A stretch of DNA of 64,000 nucleotides from the NCBI GenBank assembly GCA_026770025.1, contig JAMXDE010000057.1, forward strand, positions 310,001 through 374,000. Reading direction: 5' to 3'. Shown one piece after another: positions 2,735-48,662 of this stretch. The position numbers and the translations under genes were made by a program. The DNA is from Craspedostauros australis (taxonomy: Eukaryota > Bacillariophyta > Bacillariophyceae > Mastogloiales > Achnanthaceae). Below the pieces are notes generated by a model. That model was given only the letters and a program-made list of their open reading frames with translations. It was not told where the DNA came from and did not search any database. The number at the start of each line of letters is the position of its first letter. The stretch's first letter is position 1.

Positions 2735-3393
2735 GATATTCATACCTGCAGAATTAGATCGCTTCCAGACGGATCTAAGACTTCAAACTCCATGGCTGTA
2801 GTCCTTGGAGTGTGTTTGGAGTGGTGCAGCTGATCGGATCTCTCAAAACGGCCTGCCAAATGCGTAGATATGCAGAAGACTACAGCACGATGCGTATCGC
2901 ACAGTATTACAATATTCACAGATTTGGATACCAGCATCTCTTCCAGACAGATATAGACACTCGCAAGTTGGTATTTTCCCGATTGGAATGCCTTCAATGC
3001 GTCGATCTTGTTAGAATGTAGTATTGCTATCTTTCCCAATGAAGGTTTCGTCTGAATACGATCCACAAGCAAGCACTTGGAGCAAACAGACGGATGATGT
3101 GCTTATCTATGACTAAAACAGGCATTGATTCCCCTCATAAGATGCTATTCATTCTTGTGGAAAAATTAATGGCATATTGTTACGAGTGTAACAAATAAAT
3201 ATGCTGTGGCTTGCACTTTTCATGTGTGGTATTGGTAGTCTATATTTATATACTAGCCTTACGAGCCGACGCGAAATCTCTGTGTCCATGAGATGTCGCA
3301 TGGACATTTTGACGGTTTGAGTCGGTAAGCAACACAAAACAGGCTGGTTGGTGGAAATCGGCACTTCAAAAGGGCTGGTTCGTGAATTTCCTC
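2735..3393 (-). repeat. Right arm of the foldback element
   Basis: Inverted copy of 1307-2165, with its terminal 58 bp identical to the left end. Between the arms (about 2166-2734) there is a further, more diverged direct copy of the ATGCTG/TTTTGAGAGATC/GGAGTTGAA module, so the element grew by both inversion and duplication of a unit of about 300 bp. Confidence 0.75.
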
Positions 3394-40540: not shown

Positions 40541-40587
40541 TTATTGCGCTGATGAGTCGTCACCTTTCTGGCCGTACCGCTTCATAT
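40541..40587 (-). pseudogene. Detached 3' end of the cyclase/PDE coding sequence
   Basis: On the minus strand, starting with the ATAT target duplication (40587-40584), these 47 bases continue the last exon of the cyclase/PDE gene in frame. They encode the residues MKRYGQKGDDSSAQ and a TAA stop at 40541. They are cut off from the rest of the gene by the 3.3-kb transposon at 40588-43914 and are no longer reached by translation, because the frame stops inside the element. Confidence 0.8.
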
Positions 40588-40822
40588 CCGTAAGGAAAAT
40601 TTTGTGCGGGCGTTTTCGTAACTGTCCTGAGGAGGACATTTATCGCTTCCTGTCGATGTTTTTCCCACAACTGTCCTGAGGAGGACAGATAATTTATCTG
40701 TCCTCCTCAGGACATTTAATTTTGGCGTTTGACTGGCTGGAACACGTATCCACGACACAAATTATGAGTGTCGCGACAATTCATCGCGTTGTTGGCTGGC
40801 GCCATCTGCTTCGTTCTTTTCT
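40588..40822 (+). repeat. Left terminal inverted repeat
   Basis: Matches the complement of 43680-43914. The outer 80 bases are diverged by small indels, while the inner part (about 40710-40822, from ATTTAATTTTGGCGTTTGAC to CATCTGCTTCGTTC) is nearly identical. Confidence 0.85.
40672..40714. repeat. Perfect hairpin within the left TIR
   Basis: Two 21-base arms (40672-40692 and 40694-40714) with a single central T. Each arm is TGTCCTGAGGAGGACAGATAA or its complement, so the DNA could extrude a cruciform. Confidence 0.85.
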
Positions 40823-41225
40823 GTGCGCTTGTTCTGGGTGTTAGCGCACCTCCACTTGCATCGTGGTACTTGCTTGTTCTAGTTTTGTCGCCTTCTGCGT
40901 CAACAAAACCATGCTAATGTGTGTCTGCTGTCCGACAAGCTTGGCTACGTCTATTTTACAGTCTTTTCTTAGCGGATGCGTTTGCGTTTGTGTTTAACTT
41001 GTCTTCCACTGCAACTACGTTCTACCCCATTTGCAATTCTTTCTTTCATTCGAGTTTCCGCCGCATCTCTTCATTATAATGCCAATGCAGATTTCTAATG
41101 TATCCCTCTCTCTCTCTCTCTCTTTCGAGGTGGCTGTTTTGTTCAGACCTTTTCTTGTTGATTGTTGCAGCTGCTGCATCCGTTCTTTCATCTTTGTCTT
41201 CGTCATTGCTGTTATCATGCTTGTC

Positions 41226-42748
41226 TCACTCTATGTTCGTAAACAATTCGGTGAACTCCGTCCTCGTGACTCGGGGAGGATGTCCATCATGGCCGCTGTG
41301 GTATTCCCTGTCACCGCAATCTGAATCTTGTTGGGAGACAGTGATTGCGGAATCGCTGTCACTTCCGTTTCTGTTTCGGTTGCAACTGCCACTGCCACTG
41401 CCATCGTGGTTGTCATTGCCATCGCGGTGGCTGTTGATGTTGCCATTGCTATTGCCGCTGACAGTGCCATTGCTGGTGTGGTAGTTTTGGAACATGAGGT
41501 CCGCAAGAGACCTCATATCAGCAGAGAGCCTATCTTGGGTGTAGCGCAACTGAGAAGTCTCTCGCTCCAAGCTGTCACGATCCTCCTACCAGCAGTGGCA
41601 TGTATCGCGCATTTTCTGTTGCTGATTCAACATGTGCTGGATGAATTGGCTGTTGTTTCTGTTGTTGTTATTGTCATTGCTACTGTCCCTGTCCTTGCTG
41701 CCATTTCTGTTGCCGTTTCCATTGCCGATATTGTGGATGTGTGCGCTTGCCTCCACAGCTGGTACTGAAAGGGGGGAAGCAGACCAGACCACCATGATTG
41801 GATGAAGTCCGGCTTGGGTGGGAGCAGGAGGCATTGCCACATGCAGCCAATCTGCGAGCTTGTTTCGATTTTGTTCAGCCTGTTGAGGAGGCTTGCAGTG
41901 TTCTGCATCTTCTGTTCCATACTCACGTGTGGCCTCTTATCAGGCTTCGTTGTGGTGGATGACATGCAGAAAGATGAGGCATTCTCTTCACTTCCTGCTG
42001 CCTTCTGTTTGCACGCGGCTTTGCCGGCCTATTCCTTTGAGATTGCAGGGCGCAGGGCGAGCATGTGGGATCTTTGCTTGCTGTTGATGCTATTGCATCC
42101 TTGAATTCTTTGCTCCAAGGTGACGCAATCCTTGGTGTAGTTCTTGCGCTCCTGTATCAGGTTGGTGAGCTCATCGAGCCACTGCTTCATATTCTCCGTC
42201 ATGCCGCTGCAGCAAGGGGTGCGCTTCAGGAGTGTTTTGGTGAGCTTCAGGAAGTTATTGAATTGGTTGGCCAATGCGGACTCTTGTGGCATATTCAGCA
42301 ACACCGTGGAGTTCTGCTGGTGGAGTTCGTTGCAGATGATTGTCCATGCTGTGCCAATGAGTGGTATCCATGGCTTGTTTGGAAGCCTGGTCATCACATT
42401 CATGGGGATTCTGTTGCATGGTTGCAGTATGTGCAGCCAAGGCAAGCAGTCCACCTTTCCCTTCAGTTTGTAGTACATTGGAGGGAAACGCTATGCGGCC
42501 TTGCCAACAGTGGTGGTGGGATCAGGCCATGAAGTGGGCTGATTACTGTTGCTACCGACTGTCACAATTTTGAAGACTGAGGTAGGAGGAGCTGACGGCT
42601 TCTTGCAATGGCATGCCCTCTTGTTGTTCGTCTGGTCCGTAGATGGCGGTGTTGTGCAGGGTAAGCCATCAGTGACAGACATAGTGCGGGATTCGTTGTT
42701 GTTGCATTCCATGTAGGCAACACCTGCATCCTGAGGAGACTGCACCAA
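41226..42748 (-). pseudogene. Decayed transposon-internal gene with SANT/Myb-like region
   Basis: Several minus-strand frames in series read as fragments of one protein: an N-terminal piece (42748-42491, GLPCTTPPSTDQTNNKRAC), a central 149-residue piece (42478-42029) and Asn/Ser/Gly-rich tails (41965-41627 and 41570-41226). The central piece has PLIGTAWTIICNEL, then NQFNNFLKLTKT and MKQWLDELTNLIQERKN. This follows the pattern P-I-G-x2-W...N-x-F...P...A-x-x-I found in element-associated Myb/SANT-like proteins of stramenopiles, from memory of the pattern and not from a search. The last piece (MERETSQLRYTQDRLSADMR) is a coiled coil. Stops and frame changes separate the pieces, though introns cannot be excluded. 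Confidence 0.4.
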
Positions 42749-43679
42749 CGTGAATACATTGGGAAATCATGTGATGGTTGGTGGCTGCTTCACGTCGTCG
42801 GCATAGGAAGGTGGTTGTATCGTGCAAGTGGATGGCATGGGAGACTGCGCTGCAGTCCCATCAGGATGGTCACTGTTGTTGTTGAGGCGAGGGGTGGAGA
42901 GATAATCGAAAGGATGGGATGGATCAATGATGGAAGAATGTGGCTTGTTGTTGATTTGGCAAGAAGATGTACAGTGGGGTGGGGTATGGATGAATTGGCT
43001 GTTGTAGGTGGGTGTGGATCAGAGGAAAGCAAAAACGTAGAGTGGTTTGGATGATGCGGATGATGCAGAGGAAGCATGTGATGCAATGTAATCCCATGGC
43101 ATGGATGTGTTGCGGTGGTTCTCCTTGACGTCGTGGTTTGAAATGGAATGCAAATGAGATAGCCCAGCGACAAGCATGGAGCAATGAAGACGACAAGAAC
43201 AAGAAAACAACGCAGAATAAAGTACGATGATTGGCTAATGTTCGGTTAACGCATGGAGCTGCTAGTTTGCCGGAACTGTGCAAGCTTAGAACATATCAGC
43301 TTGGAGCGCACGAACTTAAATCTATTCGGCTTGCGCCAAGGGAGAAGCTCTGATGCCACCCCTCGAAAGGTGTGGCTATCGGGCTGTGGCTCCCTTGCAG
43401 GCTTGCTTGTGAAGGGCTGAGCGGAGTGCGAGAGTCCTCTATCGCAACAACGAGAAATCAACCAAGCTTTTTTTAAATGGACACACAGTTACATGGCTCC
43501 GTTGATGAAAGAGGAAACATAACCAGGACACACAAGTTCCAGAACACAATTAGAGATCCCCCCAACACCCATAAGTGACGCAACTGAAAGCAGATGTTGT
43601 AGAACATTATAGAATATAATAATATAGAATAATATTCTGGAATACTATTGAACAGATTGGCGTGTGGATGTGCAGATGG

Positions 43680-43914
43680 CAAAAAAGAACGAAGCAGATG
43701 GCACCAGCCACAACGCGATGAATTGTCGCGACACTCATAATTTGTGTCGTGGATACGTGTTCCAACCAGTCAAACGCCAAAATTAAATGTCCTCAGGAGG
43801 ACAGATACGTTTTCTGTCTTCCTGAGGACAGTTACGATGCATGTCAAAAATAAATGTCCTCAGGAGGACAGATAGCACTAAATGTCCTCCTGAGGACCGA
43901 AACTTTCCTTACGG
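43680..43914 (-). repeat. Right terminal inverted repeat
   Basis: Inverted partner of 40588-40822. Its outer end supplies the last codons and the stop codon (TAG at 43878-43880) now used by the cyclase/PDE frame. Confidence 0.85.
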
Positions 43915-46900
43915 ATATATCTCGCCACCACGTCCTGACCCCGTGTTGCCCATTCCTGGCGGTTGGCCTGCGCGTAGTTCAAGTACTCGTCGCTCGATAC
44001 GCCGAACACGCCGCAATCCTTCAACTTCTTCGCCAACGGGATGATGTAGAAATCGAAGAACCCGAGCTCGCCCTTGTACCAACCCAAGGATGGGTCGTTC
44101 TCTGCCTTGCCGGCCTTGTACGCGACGTACATTTCATGGAACAGCTTCTCATTCCACTTTTGGTAGACGTGCCAATCTGTGGTTGCACAGCAGAAGGTTG
44201 GAGAGGATGAATGGCAGGGATACAATCGGAGCACAGGCAGTGCGTGAATGTCAAGATATGTAGAGTAGAGCAATGCGAAAGGGAAATATAGTTGAGATCA
44301 TGTTGCTGCCGAATCGTGATCGTACAGCTGGCATGCTGCCAAAGAGGTGCTCGAGCACACACGAACCCGCAAGCACGTAATCACACAATCACATCACATG
44401 CATCACATCAACTCAACTCATTTCACGAAACTGTCACAAAGCGATCTGACTTACGTTGCATCGTGTGCGAGACATCCGAGGCCTGGATGAGATGCTCAAT
44501 GACAATGGTGGCCATTCGGTTGGCATCTTCCTCGCTGTTGCTTCCCTTCGATGAATCGCTCGTAAGGGTGCCGGAATGGTCCAAGCGTGTGTGTTTGGCT
44601 TGTGGCTTGTCGAATGCTTTGGCCCAACGGGCTTTGCGGAGGGCGTTGAGCTCTTTGTCCATGATGTCCGTAGCAAGCACGGCGTTCACCAGCAGCTGGC
44701 GGAATCGCATGAGCTCCTGCTTGGTGGAGTAGATGCACTCTCGCATCTCACGGTACTGCGGGGACATCATCAGATCCCATGCAATATCGAAGGAATTTTG
44801 CTCTGCAACGCTCTTGTTCTTGTACTTGCTGGCGATATCCACCCCCTCCTTCACCAACTGGGAGTTGGGAAGGCCGGTGTGATCAACATCATGAATCAAC
44901 GCAGCAAGCACGCATGCGAATTGCGTGATGGGATCGGACGTGATGCCGAAGGTGAACTTGTGAAGCGCGTCTCCGTTGCTCTCCTTGTAGCACATGTCGT
45001 TGTAGTCAATCGCCTCCTTCCTCACGATTCGGGAAAGGAGCTTGACGGTGGATTGGACCACGTGGCTGGCATGCGAGAAGGAATGGAACGGGTTGGATCG
45101 GTACATTTGGGAGATGGTGAAGACGAAGTGATCGACCTGCGACCTTACGGCGGGGCTCAGCTCTATCGCGGACGGATCCTGCTGGTACGGCAGCGATTCG
45201 CTGGGGAGCTTGATGACTTCCTGCACTTCGTCGAGGGCTGTTCCATGGCGTTGGGGCAACTTGATGTCACCATGGCGGCTCTTGGGACTATTGAGCAGCT
45301 TGAGCTGGTCCTTCGAGCGCATTGCAAGGATTCGCCTGATCATGCCCTTCATCACATCGGCATTCCACTGGACCTCCAGCTGCGAGGTGTTCGACATCGC
45401 TCCGTATCGCCTTCCCACGAAGGAGTTGGTGTGCTTTGGATTCCCAGACGAATGTTGCTCGGTAAATGTGTTCAGGGACTCGCTCGACATTTTCTTGGCC
45501 AAAGCTCTGGAAGAATCGTGCGTTGTTGATGTTGCCGATTGCTCAGATGACTCGTGCTGTGTATCGACATGGAGGTGTGCGTTGCCAACCTTCACCTGAT
45601 TCATGATGACAGTATCCATGGCTTGGAGGATGGGCATCTCCTCGTGGATCTTCTGGATGATCCAATATGTCTGGAGCTCACCCTTACCCTTGGCGCAGAT
45701 TCGGTCCGCGCGTGGCTCCAGCCAAGCCTTCTTGCCAGCGGCAGTGAGGGCGTCGGCAGTGTCCTGCGACACCTGGATCTTGTTGGGCGCTCCGAGCGCC
45801 TCGATACGTGCGGCGGTGTTGACGGTGTCACCGAAGAGTTGAAATCTTGACTTCTCGCCACGGAGGACACCTGCGGTCACTGGGCCGGAGTGAAGTCCAA
45901 AACGCATAGTGAGGTCGCCGGTGTCTGGGCCCAGCTTGGCAGCCAGATCCCTCATGACGACTCGCAGCTTCGAGACGCAGAGCTTCGCAAAGCGCACCAT
46001 GATGACAGCGTGGTCGGGGGTTGGATCTGGCAATCCAGCCGCAGCCACGTAGCAGTCGCCCACCGTTTCGACCTTGAACACCTTGAGCTTTTTCGCGATG
46101 CGATCAAAGGACGAATACAGCGTCTCCAGCAAGGAGAAGACCTGCGCCGGTTCTCGCATACTTGACCAGGCTGTGTTGTTGTATCACATGGTCGAATAGT
46201 GTGGTGTGTCGTCGTACCGTGTGTCATCGTATCGTATCGTGTTCGGTTTGGTATTGCGTTCAAGGTACGAGAATGGACCAATGCGAAGGATGCAAGTAGA
46301 AAGTGGACCATGAGTTGTGAAGGAATGTGTGAGGGTTCGAGATATCTCGTGATCGACAGGGGTTAAGTGATCGGAGGGTGATTGGAGCGTGATGCGAGGG
46401 CAAGTGTTTCCAAGTTGGGAGTACCGCGCGCTAATGTTTGACAAGAAGGGACAAACATACTGCGGGGGATTGGAGCCCGTGGTGCTCTTCTTGTAGACGA
46501 GGGTTTGCGGCGTGTTCCTTCCGCGTACTATGGAAAGCTTGTCTGTGACTGCACCAACACAGCACAACACAAGAGGAACCACGGAATGATTGATCTTGCT
46601 CACGTACCTGTGAAGCCCACAATGTCCGCAAACATGACAGTAACGTGGAGGAAGAGATCGGCGATGGGCATTGGCTTGTTCGTTGTTGATGCCATCAGAT
46701 CCAATCCAGGGTCCATGAACTGGCCCTTGCCAAGACCTTTGTTGCCTTCGTCGGATGAGGACTCTGGGTTGGCTGCGCCGCCAAAATGTGAGCGGAATGG
46801 GAAGAACCTTGGTTCTGGTTTCTTGGCCGCGGTGGGCATTAGACGATCCTTGACGCTGGCTGGGAACAGCGAGTTGATCAGAGCGTCGGAGCGCTGGGCC

Positions 46901-48662
46901 TTCTTCATCACGTAGGCCTGACGCCGCTCCACGAAGACGTCGTACATGAGGAAGACGATCGCGGTCAGCAGGAAGGTGCCGATAACCATGAGTGTGCTTC
47001 TGAGAGGCTCGCTGGTGTGGTATGTGTCGTAGAATTCGGATGAAGGGTAGACGTGCATCTGGAAGGTGCAGTCCTCGAAGCTCTTGATGGCGCTGAAATC
47101 GTACACATGCTCGACGTTGCCGTCTAGGTCTTCGTGGATGCTGTGATTCCCGAGGTACATGACCTCAGGACCATCGATGAGGTAGGAGAACTCTTGTCCG
47201 CACGTGTTGCTAATGACCACGTACACCTGGTCGATGTCTTCGGTCACGACGTTCTCGAAGAATTCATGCCAATTCACATTGACACTGAGGACAGCTTTCA
47301 GCGCCCGTTCGGATTCGAAGATTGAATCAAAGATGGGGACGCCGAGGAAGGAGGATGGCCACTTCCGGCGGATTTCGGCTGGGTTGTCGAGATTGTTAAC
47401 CGTCGAGAAGATGGTCGTCTTGAGTTTCATGATGTTCTCGATGGTGGTCTTGGTTGGCTCTACAGCGAGCGCATCCAGATTGTAGGCGTACGGAGTGAGC
47501 CGAATGGGGCTGACGTGACGGTAGGGTGCGAAGTAGCCCGTGTCAGTTCGCTCTGCACCCTTCACGAGACCTCCGCCAGCAGTGACGTATATGATTGGCG
47601 AATACGGCGGCCGCTCGCCGCCTTCGTCACCTTCGAACTTCTTGGCCATATCCAGCCAATCCAAGTTATCGTTGACGTACTTCTCGTAGGCGTCGACCTC
47701 GTCTTCCTTCACCAGCACGTTGATGCCGACAGAGTTCGTCCCCGTGAACTCGGCCAGCTGTTGTGCTTGTGCCTCGAAGGTAGGGATGGAGACGAACGGC
47801 CAGGTTACGTTCTGGATCTCGAAGAAGGCGGTCATCTGAAGAGCGACCGCCTCGCTGGTCTCCAAAATGGCCTTGGCGTTCAGTTCCGAGACGTCATGGA
47901 GACTGTTGGCAACATCCCTGAACTGTGGGCATTCTCATCAGTAGTGGGTAGCGGGTGATGGGTGATGGTAGAGCGCGGTACACGTACGTATGGTAGGAGA
48001 TGAATAGGCCGGTGGAGAGAGGCACGATGAGATGTTCGCATCATACGAACATGGGCACATTCAATCGTGTGCCACACAAGCACAAAAGCAGAGAAACGGG
48101 AAGGAGAAGGAGAATGTGAGTTCGTGGAAGCCCATCGAGTTCGTCGTGATGTTGGGCCTGGTCGCTGGGCGTGCATCGTTCGTGTACCAAACGGGGTATC
48201 CCGTGATCCCCATGCGATCAGCAGCATACTAATACACGTACGATACCATCGCGTTTGACCATGGCGAGATGATCTGATTCGATGGGCTATTGATGAATGT
48301 GTGCGTGATGATGCACGCATGCATGGACTTACCCTTGTCTTGTAGCCTTGATGCTCCTCGTCGCTCGCGACCCTGTAGACGACAATCGCGCTTGACACTG
48401 CGGCCAGCAGGAGGATGACGCACATGATCGTCTTCGAGCCAAGGAGCCACCTGGATGGCCTCCATCTCCCTACTGATTTCTCCTCGGACGCCGTGGATGC
48501 AGACGAAGAGATTGTCTGCCTTCCGCTCATGCTGTAGGCGTACGATGATTGATCGCCGCTGTCCGATCCGACGGATGCGGCCCCATCTCCATCGGAGGAA
48601 TCAGGCGTGGTATCGTCAGCATAGTTCCCCGTGTGGCCCATGCGTTCGTCCGGTCGCTTCAT
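43878..48662 (-). CDS. Receptor-type nucleotide cyclase fused to class I cyclic-nucleotide phosphodiesterase; 3' end altered by transposon
   Basis: Four exons: 48662-48333, 47922-46608, 46170-44455 and 44176-43878 (introns begin GTAAGT, GTACGT and GTAAGT; acceptors CACAG). All phases agree, giving 1,219 residues. Order: Ser/Asp-rich cytosolic tail; membrane span 1 (79-96); an extracellular sensor of about 310 residues; span 2 (about 418-440); class III cyclase domain (about 530-720) with MFADIVGFTAWSS (metal Asp) and VFKVETVGDCYVA; class I PDE domain (about 850-1205) with NPFHSFSHASHV, LIHDVDHTGLPN and LIQASDVSHTMQHW. The Glu in KVETVGD favours GTP, while Gln in RFQLFGDTVN replaces the usual guanylate-cyclase Cys, so substrate choice is open. 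The ATG at 48662 is the first in frame after a stretch with only non-ATG starts. The last 12 codons come from the inserted transposon. Confidence 0.9.

Follow-up and report, generated by a model that had tools for sequence, protein, structure and literature searches.

We report that a DNA transposon has inserted into the last exon of a guanylate cyclase/phosphodiesterase (PDE) gene of the diatom Craspedostauros australis. The window, i.e. the whole stretch of DNA that we analysed, comprises 64,000 nucleotides (C55:310001-374000) of an assembly of 74.8 Mb in 90 contigs, which are labelled here with C and a number; positions given without a contig are those of the window. An earlier sequence-only reading had proposed a transposon in this exon. 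The insertion is confirmed: the element lies between two copies of ATAT and the flanks rejoin in frame. All coordinates of that reading hold. We are highly confident of the joint reading, in which a non-autonomous element that targets ATAT replaced the tail of the enzyme and spared its core, with the enzyme probably still working. The main features are as follows:

44455..46170, minus strand: exon carrying the bulk of the guanylate cyclase domain together with the start of the PDE domain (open frame, PF00211, PF00233; limits set from splice signals and from the paralogue on C43)
43915..44176, minus strand: last exon, retained part, from the PDE C-terminus to ...DVVARY plus ATAT (in-frame join to the preceding exon, ...HTMQ-HWHVYQKWNE...)
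43915..43918, plus strand: target duplication, right copy ATAT
43878..43914, minus strand: new tail from the element, IRKESFGPQEDI (first codon shared with ATAT), and TAG 43878-43880 (translation)
40588..43914, no strand: non-autonomous DNA transposon, 3,327 bp, terminal repeats CCGTAAGGAAA (shared ends, further copies)
40584..40587, plus strand: target duplication, left copy ATAT
40541..40583, minus strand: original coding 3' end, stranded (MKRYGQKGDDSSAQ with one ATAT), and TAA (translation, C43 alignment, in-register identity)

Insertion and rebuilt empty site

The two ATAT copies at 40584-40587 and 43915-43918 stand directly on either side of the 3,327-bp element. On the minus strand the last exon reads ...RGQDVVARY, enters the element, continues as IRKESFGPQEDI and stops at TAG 43878-43880, giving ...VARYIRKESFGPQEDI as the C-terminus of the occupied exon. 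The translation agrees with the earlier claim that the exon runs 12 codons past the junction, although the first of these codons consists of two ATAT bases and one element base. When we rejoined the flanks via one ATAT the frame was unbroken and the exon read ...VARYMKRYGQKGDDSSAQ up to its stop; the rejoined flanks are ...RGQDVVARYMKRYGQKGDDSSAQ with TAA at 40541-40543. The stranded 43 bases 40541-40583 together with one ATAT thus keep the exon frame as MKRYGQKGDDSSAQ up to that TAA. Empty sites with AT alone, without ATAT or with both ATATs were rejected as the frame was broken in each case. A 2-bp target site duplication (TA inside ATAT) yields the same empty site as the 4-bp ATAT and is indistinguishable from it.

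Homology of the stranded piece to the PDE tail, the lack of which would have refuted the sequence-only reading, was found, in a paralogue on contig C43 rather than in an orthologue. The 86-residue PDE exon matched 115 stretches of the genome, the window's own included, many of them in long open frames. These belong to a very large cyclase/PDE family with clusters on C22, C3, C69 and C1. The closest relative of the last exon is the C43 paralogue with 90% protein identity over the 86 residues. Its DNA aligns with the rebuilt empty site without a gap across the junction, the stops fall in the same column, and in both genes the tail past the W...G motif is 21 residues long. The empty site can thus be rebuilt in frame, as had been claimed. 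In register, 25 of the 43 stranded bases are identical to C43. Among 20,000 shuffles a single one reached this value, and none did among the 3,214 other offsets at the C43 locus. Among the 29,957 43-mers from window positions 30001-60000 two reached 25, one of which is the stranded piece itself, and the element's own first 43 bases scored just 15. Judged by these controls the likeness is not a matter of chance.

Thirty of the 115 stretches, including that of the window, were extracted as loci. The tail past the W...G motif spans 11-56 residues in the 29 paralogues (median across all 30: 20), and very short tails of 11 and 12 residues exist. A Y/M-[MLIR]-x-x-[YF] motif just after the site, picked after inspecting the tails, occurs in 11 of the 29 paralogue tails (7/29 with a stricter pattern); it is present in the rebuilt tail and missing from the occupied one.

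Host gene and consequence for the enzyme

Profile searches placed PF00211 (E 2.3e-37) and PF00233 (E 5.9e-21) in a single open frame, so that a class III cyclase and a PDE domain lie within one gene. The exon junction 44455/44176 carries GT-AG signals. The gene had been called a receptor cyclase/PDE. The two catalytic domains bear out the second half of this name, whereas 'receptor' was drawn from the layout: the CHASE sensor-domain match (E 0.058) fell below its cut-off, and the frame 46600-47865 shows a hydrophobic stretch by eye.

The proposal that the C-terminus was altered and the catalytic core spared stands, as the cyclase and PDE frames are open in the exons examined and only the tail differs. 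The further statement that the insertion changes a signalling enzyme is right as to the replaced C-terminus but too strong as to function, given the range of paralogue tail lengths. Because the core is intact and those lengths vary so widely, the swap was probably tolerated, and the same variation means that it may be neutral. The enzyme most likely still works, since its catalytic core is whole and only a variable tail was replaced.

Element structure, copies and target

Besides the window element there are four other near-full-length copies, on C55 (207 kb away), C11, C4 and C2, which are 95.6-98.0% identical to it over the aligned pieces; pairwise substitutions among the near-full-length copies range from 1.78 to 3.38%. 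A longer copy on C16 brings the full-length copies to six. All six carry the perfect 11-bp terminal repeat CCGTAAGGAAA at both ends and ATAT on both sides. C41 and C33 hold one element copy with other DNA interrupting it. The ends of these two contigs are 99.9% identical over 17.8 kb and look like retained second haplotypes, as do C82 and C2:1820000, which share the same flank. Joining the flanks of the C11 copy gave a 231-codon frame without a coding look.

The target rule extends beyond the full-length copies. We found 20 exact genome matches to CCGTAAGGAAANTTT, of which 19 are directly preceded by ATAT; two of the 20 ends are probable second haplotype copies (C33 with C41; C82 with C2). The sole match without a preceding ATAT is C81:71398-71412, which could be a truncated copy or mark an element end from a related family that uses a different target. 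Some 2 kb away, at C81:73399-75489, is a stretch distantly related to the protein encoded by the C16 copy.

Within the window element we identified the following features:

40669..40823, plus strand: left subterminal inverted repeat (positions 82-236 of the element; 93.5% identical to its partner at 3093-3246)
43680..43833, minus strand: right subterminal inverted repeat
40972..41381, minus strand: C-terminus remnant of the coding relative (two tblastn pieces with 55% and 67% identity, corresponding to residues 452-584 in the third open frame of C16)
41364..43045, minus strand: decayed passenger gene from a family of 550-630 aa proteins, with five stops here, three of them shared (protein-family matches, stop alignment)

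The subterminal inverted repeats are ~155 bases long and ~94% alike. TCCT[CG]AGGA palindromes occur 7 or 8 times per full-length copy (n=6), against 0.02 expected in the window element from base composition, and are confined to the outer 135 bases bar one internal site in 5/6 copies. The traces of the presumed transposase in the window element are limited to leader-end and C-terminal remnants, and neither strand of the element holds a frame of more than 155 codons. The element is thus a non-autonomous, Pack-like, gene-carrying derivative with a traceable protein-coding relative, which the earlier reading had overlooked. A search of the open-licence literature found no description of the element family.

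The passenger sits between the element ends in the same sense as the remnants of the coding relative. Its family is matched 27 times across the genome; seven matches lie at element copies, and most of the others are in frames of more than 400 codons; the C16 copy has no passenger match. In the window element its aligned parts contain five stops. Three of these, by their place in the alignment, are common to the five near-full-length copies and C41, and the decay therefore predates the spread of the element. Pfam gave no match over the cut-off (best E 0.0049). The family, with members such as L071 (C13:225700-227800) and L072 (C1:1473700-1475800), is uncharacterised and has a conserved core FPPMYY-LKGKVD-FPWL...KPWIPPIG-AW and low-complexity tails. 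The captured gene may come from a host family or may itself belong to another mobile family.

The coding relative on C16

The C16 copy is 6.5 kb long and matches the window element with 86% identity over 0.8 kb on the left and 92% over 0.27 kb on the right. Without two predicted introns (110 and 113 bases) it forms one open frame of 1,903 codons with an uncertain start. The 975-aa middle part of the protein has at least 78 matches in the genome, itself included, and the others are 23-76% identical; this count is a lower bound as 47 of 2,003 candidates were scored. Conservation among distant members is highest in the stretches that cover residues 765-949, mostly at 39-49% identity, and in five segments over this range 34 of 207 columns are invariant. 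We call the C16 protein the presumed transposase because of its place and distribution and not because of a match. The best matches of the C16 open frames were RE_HindIII in Pfam (E 0.11), E 0.12 in NCBIfam and E 0.32 in PDB, none of which we trusted. Of five segments from the core of the protein, one matched DDE_Tnp_1 (E 0.018). The core profile matched 45 sequences in PDB (best E 9.1e-7). These are mostly ankyrin repeats, made up of several weak stretches round a LKLVKKLVELGADIQG-like helix and, in the top two, without any single significant stretch; we took them as chance.

The protein also has a conserved domain with the motifs LGHxNExPLM...YARxSxDFL...VFVVEMKTRA...QLLHHA, the best-conserved part across distant relatives, which is called nuclease-like here (PD-(D/E)XK, YqaJ type) from its motifs alone. 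A PDB search with this domain gave no match, and Pfam gave just single-member matches with E 0.05 or worse. Viral relatives of the C16 protein were not found, with one scan giving one pattern match. We suggest, tentatively and as one possibility, an undescribed superfamily of diatom DNA transposons with a strict ATAT target and a DDE-like core (DRGY...GTHKR) plus the conserved nuclease-like domain, which picks up and spreads gene copies.

The C16 copy itself possibly also lies inside a gene: its joined flanks, ...DRTDRITS|YALYEWLMERV..., form a 250-codon frame (L017 1-590, 7080-7701). A frame of similar length likewise crosses the site on the opposite strand.

Age of the insertion

In an alignment of five copies with 3,309 gap-free sites, 28 substitutions are private to the window copy, which puts the upper bound on change since insertion at 0.85%. 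In another diatom the substitution rate is ~5e-10 per site per generation, and such a rate allows an age of up to ~2e7 generations. Among the best candidates scored, the assembly contains no second near-identical copy of the gene flanks, either occupied or empty. The suggestion of a recent or polymorphic insertion was not borne out. On these two grounds, the private sites and the missing second copy, the insertion may instead be old. The nearest relative of the window copy is the C55 copy 207 kb away, which differs at 59 of 3,321 sites (84 to 112 for the other three). That the nearest copy is on the same contig suggests a local jump.

Mechanism and alternatives

The best explanation of these observations is that a cut-and-paste transposon of an ATAT-targeting family entered an ATAT in the last exon and duplicated it (4 bp). 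The element keeps ~0.8 kb from one end of its coding relative and ~0.27 kb from the other, with the decayed copy of an unrelated gene between them, and as it is non-autonomous it was probably mobilised in trans by a protein like that of C16. The insertion replaced the last 14 codons of the gene by 12 from the right terminus of the element. The coding relative is read in the same direction as the gene, and for this reason 3' signals that belong to the element, around 40588-40970, may be where the message ends. Such poly(A)-like words as the element has are weak: read in the sense of the gene, the element contains no AATAAA, a single ATTAAA (40720) and TGTAA at 43493 and 40960.

Several points weigh against this explanation. 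The whole case was read from assembled DNA, and the base-by-base tail comparison depends on one close paralogue. The ratio of nonsynonymous to synonymous substitution rates against C43 (dN/dS 0.134, dS 0.95, 657 codons) speaks for long-term constraint, but it reflects the long history of both paralogues and not the time after the insertion. On the side of the presumed transposase, the introns were predicted solely from the frame and GT-AG words, and searches of Pfam, NCBIfam and PDB gave the C16 protein neither a family match over the cut-off nor a trustworthy structure match.

The alternative that survives best is that the insertion made a pseudogene, either because the fused message, which may carry as much as 3.3 kb of element after the stop at 43878, undergoes degradation or because the protein is unstable. 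The loss of the Y-M-x-x-Y tail motif fits such an outcome, as does a new 3' untranslated region that could exceed 3 kb with few poly(A)-like words inside the element. However, the cyclase/PDE exons examined are open, their junctions are canonical, and paralogues manage with tails of 11 and 12 residues. We consider a pseudogene unlikely, though a serious contender. It is far less probable that splicing removes the element, or uses part of it as an intron, and that the old tail is still produced. From the gene side the right terminus does begin with a donor-like CC-GTAAGG, but when this donor is joined to the first or the second AG of the stranded exon (after GAAG or after GGCCAG) the frame of the old tail is lost, and 3.3 kb is far above the three introns inferred in our analysis (110, 113 and 278 bases). 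An artefactual join in the assembly, which several near-identical repeat copies, one of them ~207 kb away on the same contig, might favour, is hardly credible, since both flanks are one gene that rejoins in frame and in register with a paralogue, and the window copy differs from its nearest copy at 59 sites. We thus retain the insertion with a replaced tail and a probably working enzyme.

Relation to known systems

Transposons of the piggyBac type target TTAA and have terminal repeats starting with CC. The present family resembles them in its 4-bp AT-only target, its CC-starting repeats and the DRGY...GTHKR stretch, which is reminiscent of the second catalytic aspartate region. It differs in its target and in the additional conserved domain of the C16 protein. 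PF13843 (DDE_Tnp_1_7) matched neither this protein nor the five core segments. Aligning the five-core-segment profile with four piggyBac-like proteins of the same genome (hhalign) gave a plausible register and a score of 18.2. This score was exceeded by at least 10 of 100 column shuffles, the best of which gave 22.3; the reversed profile and the other domain reached 17.6 and 14.9. With one piggyBac-like row omitted the score varied from 16.2 to 23.7, and one of four trials beat the best full-set shuffle. The profile score is not above the shuffled controls and the target is not TTAA; we do not assign the family to piggyBac. Transposases with PF13843 are abundant in this genome (160 stretches, several with long intact frames). 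A further large family is that of the silicon transporters (PF03842), with 88 stretches of which 32 are near full length (28 stop-free); to our knowledge this gene number is far above that of other diatoms.

Sola2 elements, as described in PMC3627910, duplicate an AT-rich 4-bp target AWWT. ATAT fits this pattern and the terminal repeats are likewise short, a likeness by target and ends alone; the target of the present element is strictly ATAT. Pack-TYPE elements, or Pack-MULEs, are outlined for plants in PMC8903248 as non-autonomous DNA transposons. Our element shares with that account the terminal repeats of an autonomous-type relative around an unrelated gene fragment, the lack of its own transposase and the possibility of merging with neighbouring exons (PMC8903248). 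The account concerns plants (PMC8903248), whereas here the host is a diatom, the relative is unclassified and targets ATAT, and the captured gene has no assigned function.

Bifunctional guanylate cyclase/PDE fusions are known in pennate diatoms, and those in Seminavis robusta are described as upregulated on sex pheromone (PMC8027222, PMC5485032). The tandem-duplicated genes of Seminavis robusta are stated to include cyclases (PMC7335047). The present gene resembles these fusions (PMC8027222, PMC5485032) in combining cyclase and PDE in one protein and differs in that this member lost its native tail to a transposon.

Insertions of this type are well known. The present one provides a clean case of a transposon that rewrites the end of a signalling enzyme, in a cyclase/PDE family that is very large in this diatom. 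It also points to a family of transposons whose target is strict and whose protein is unclassified; should this family prove new, it would be an addition to the catalogue of eukaryotic transposases.

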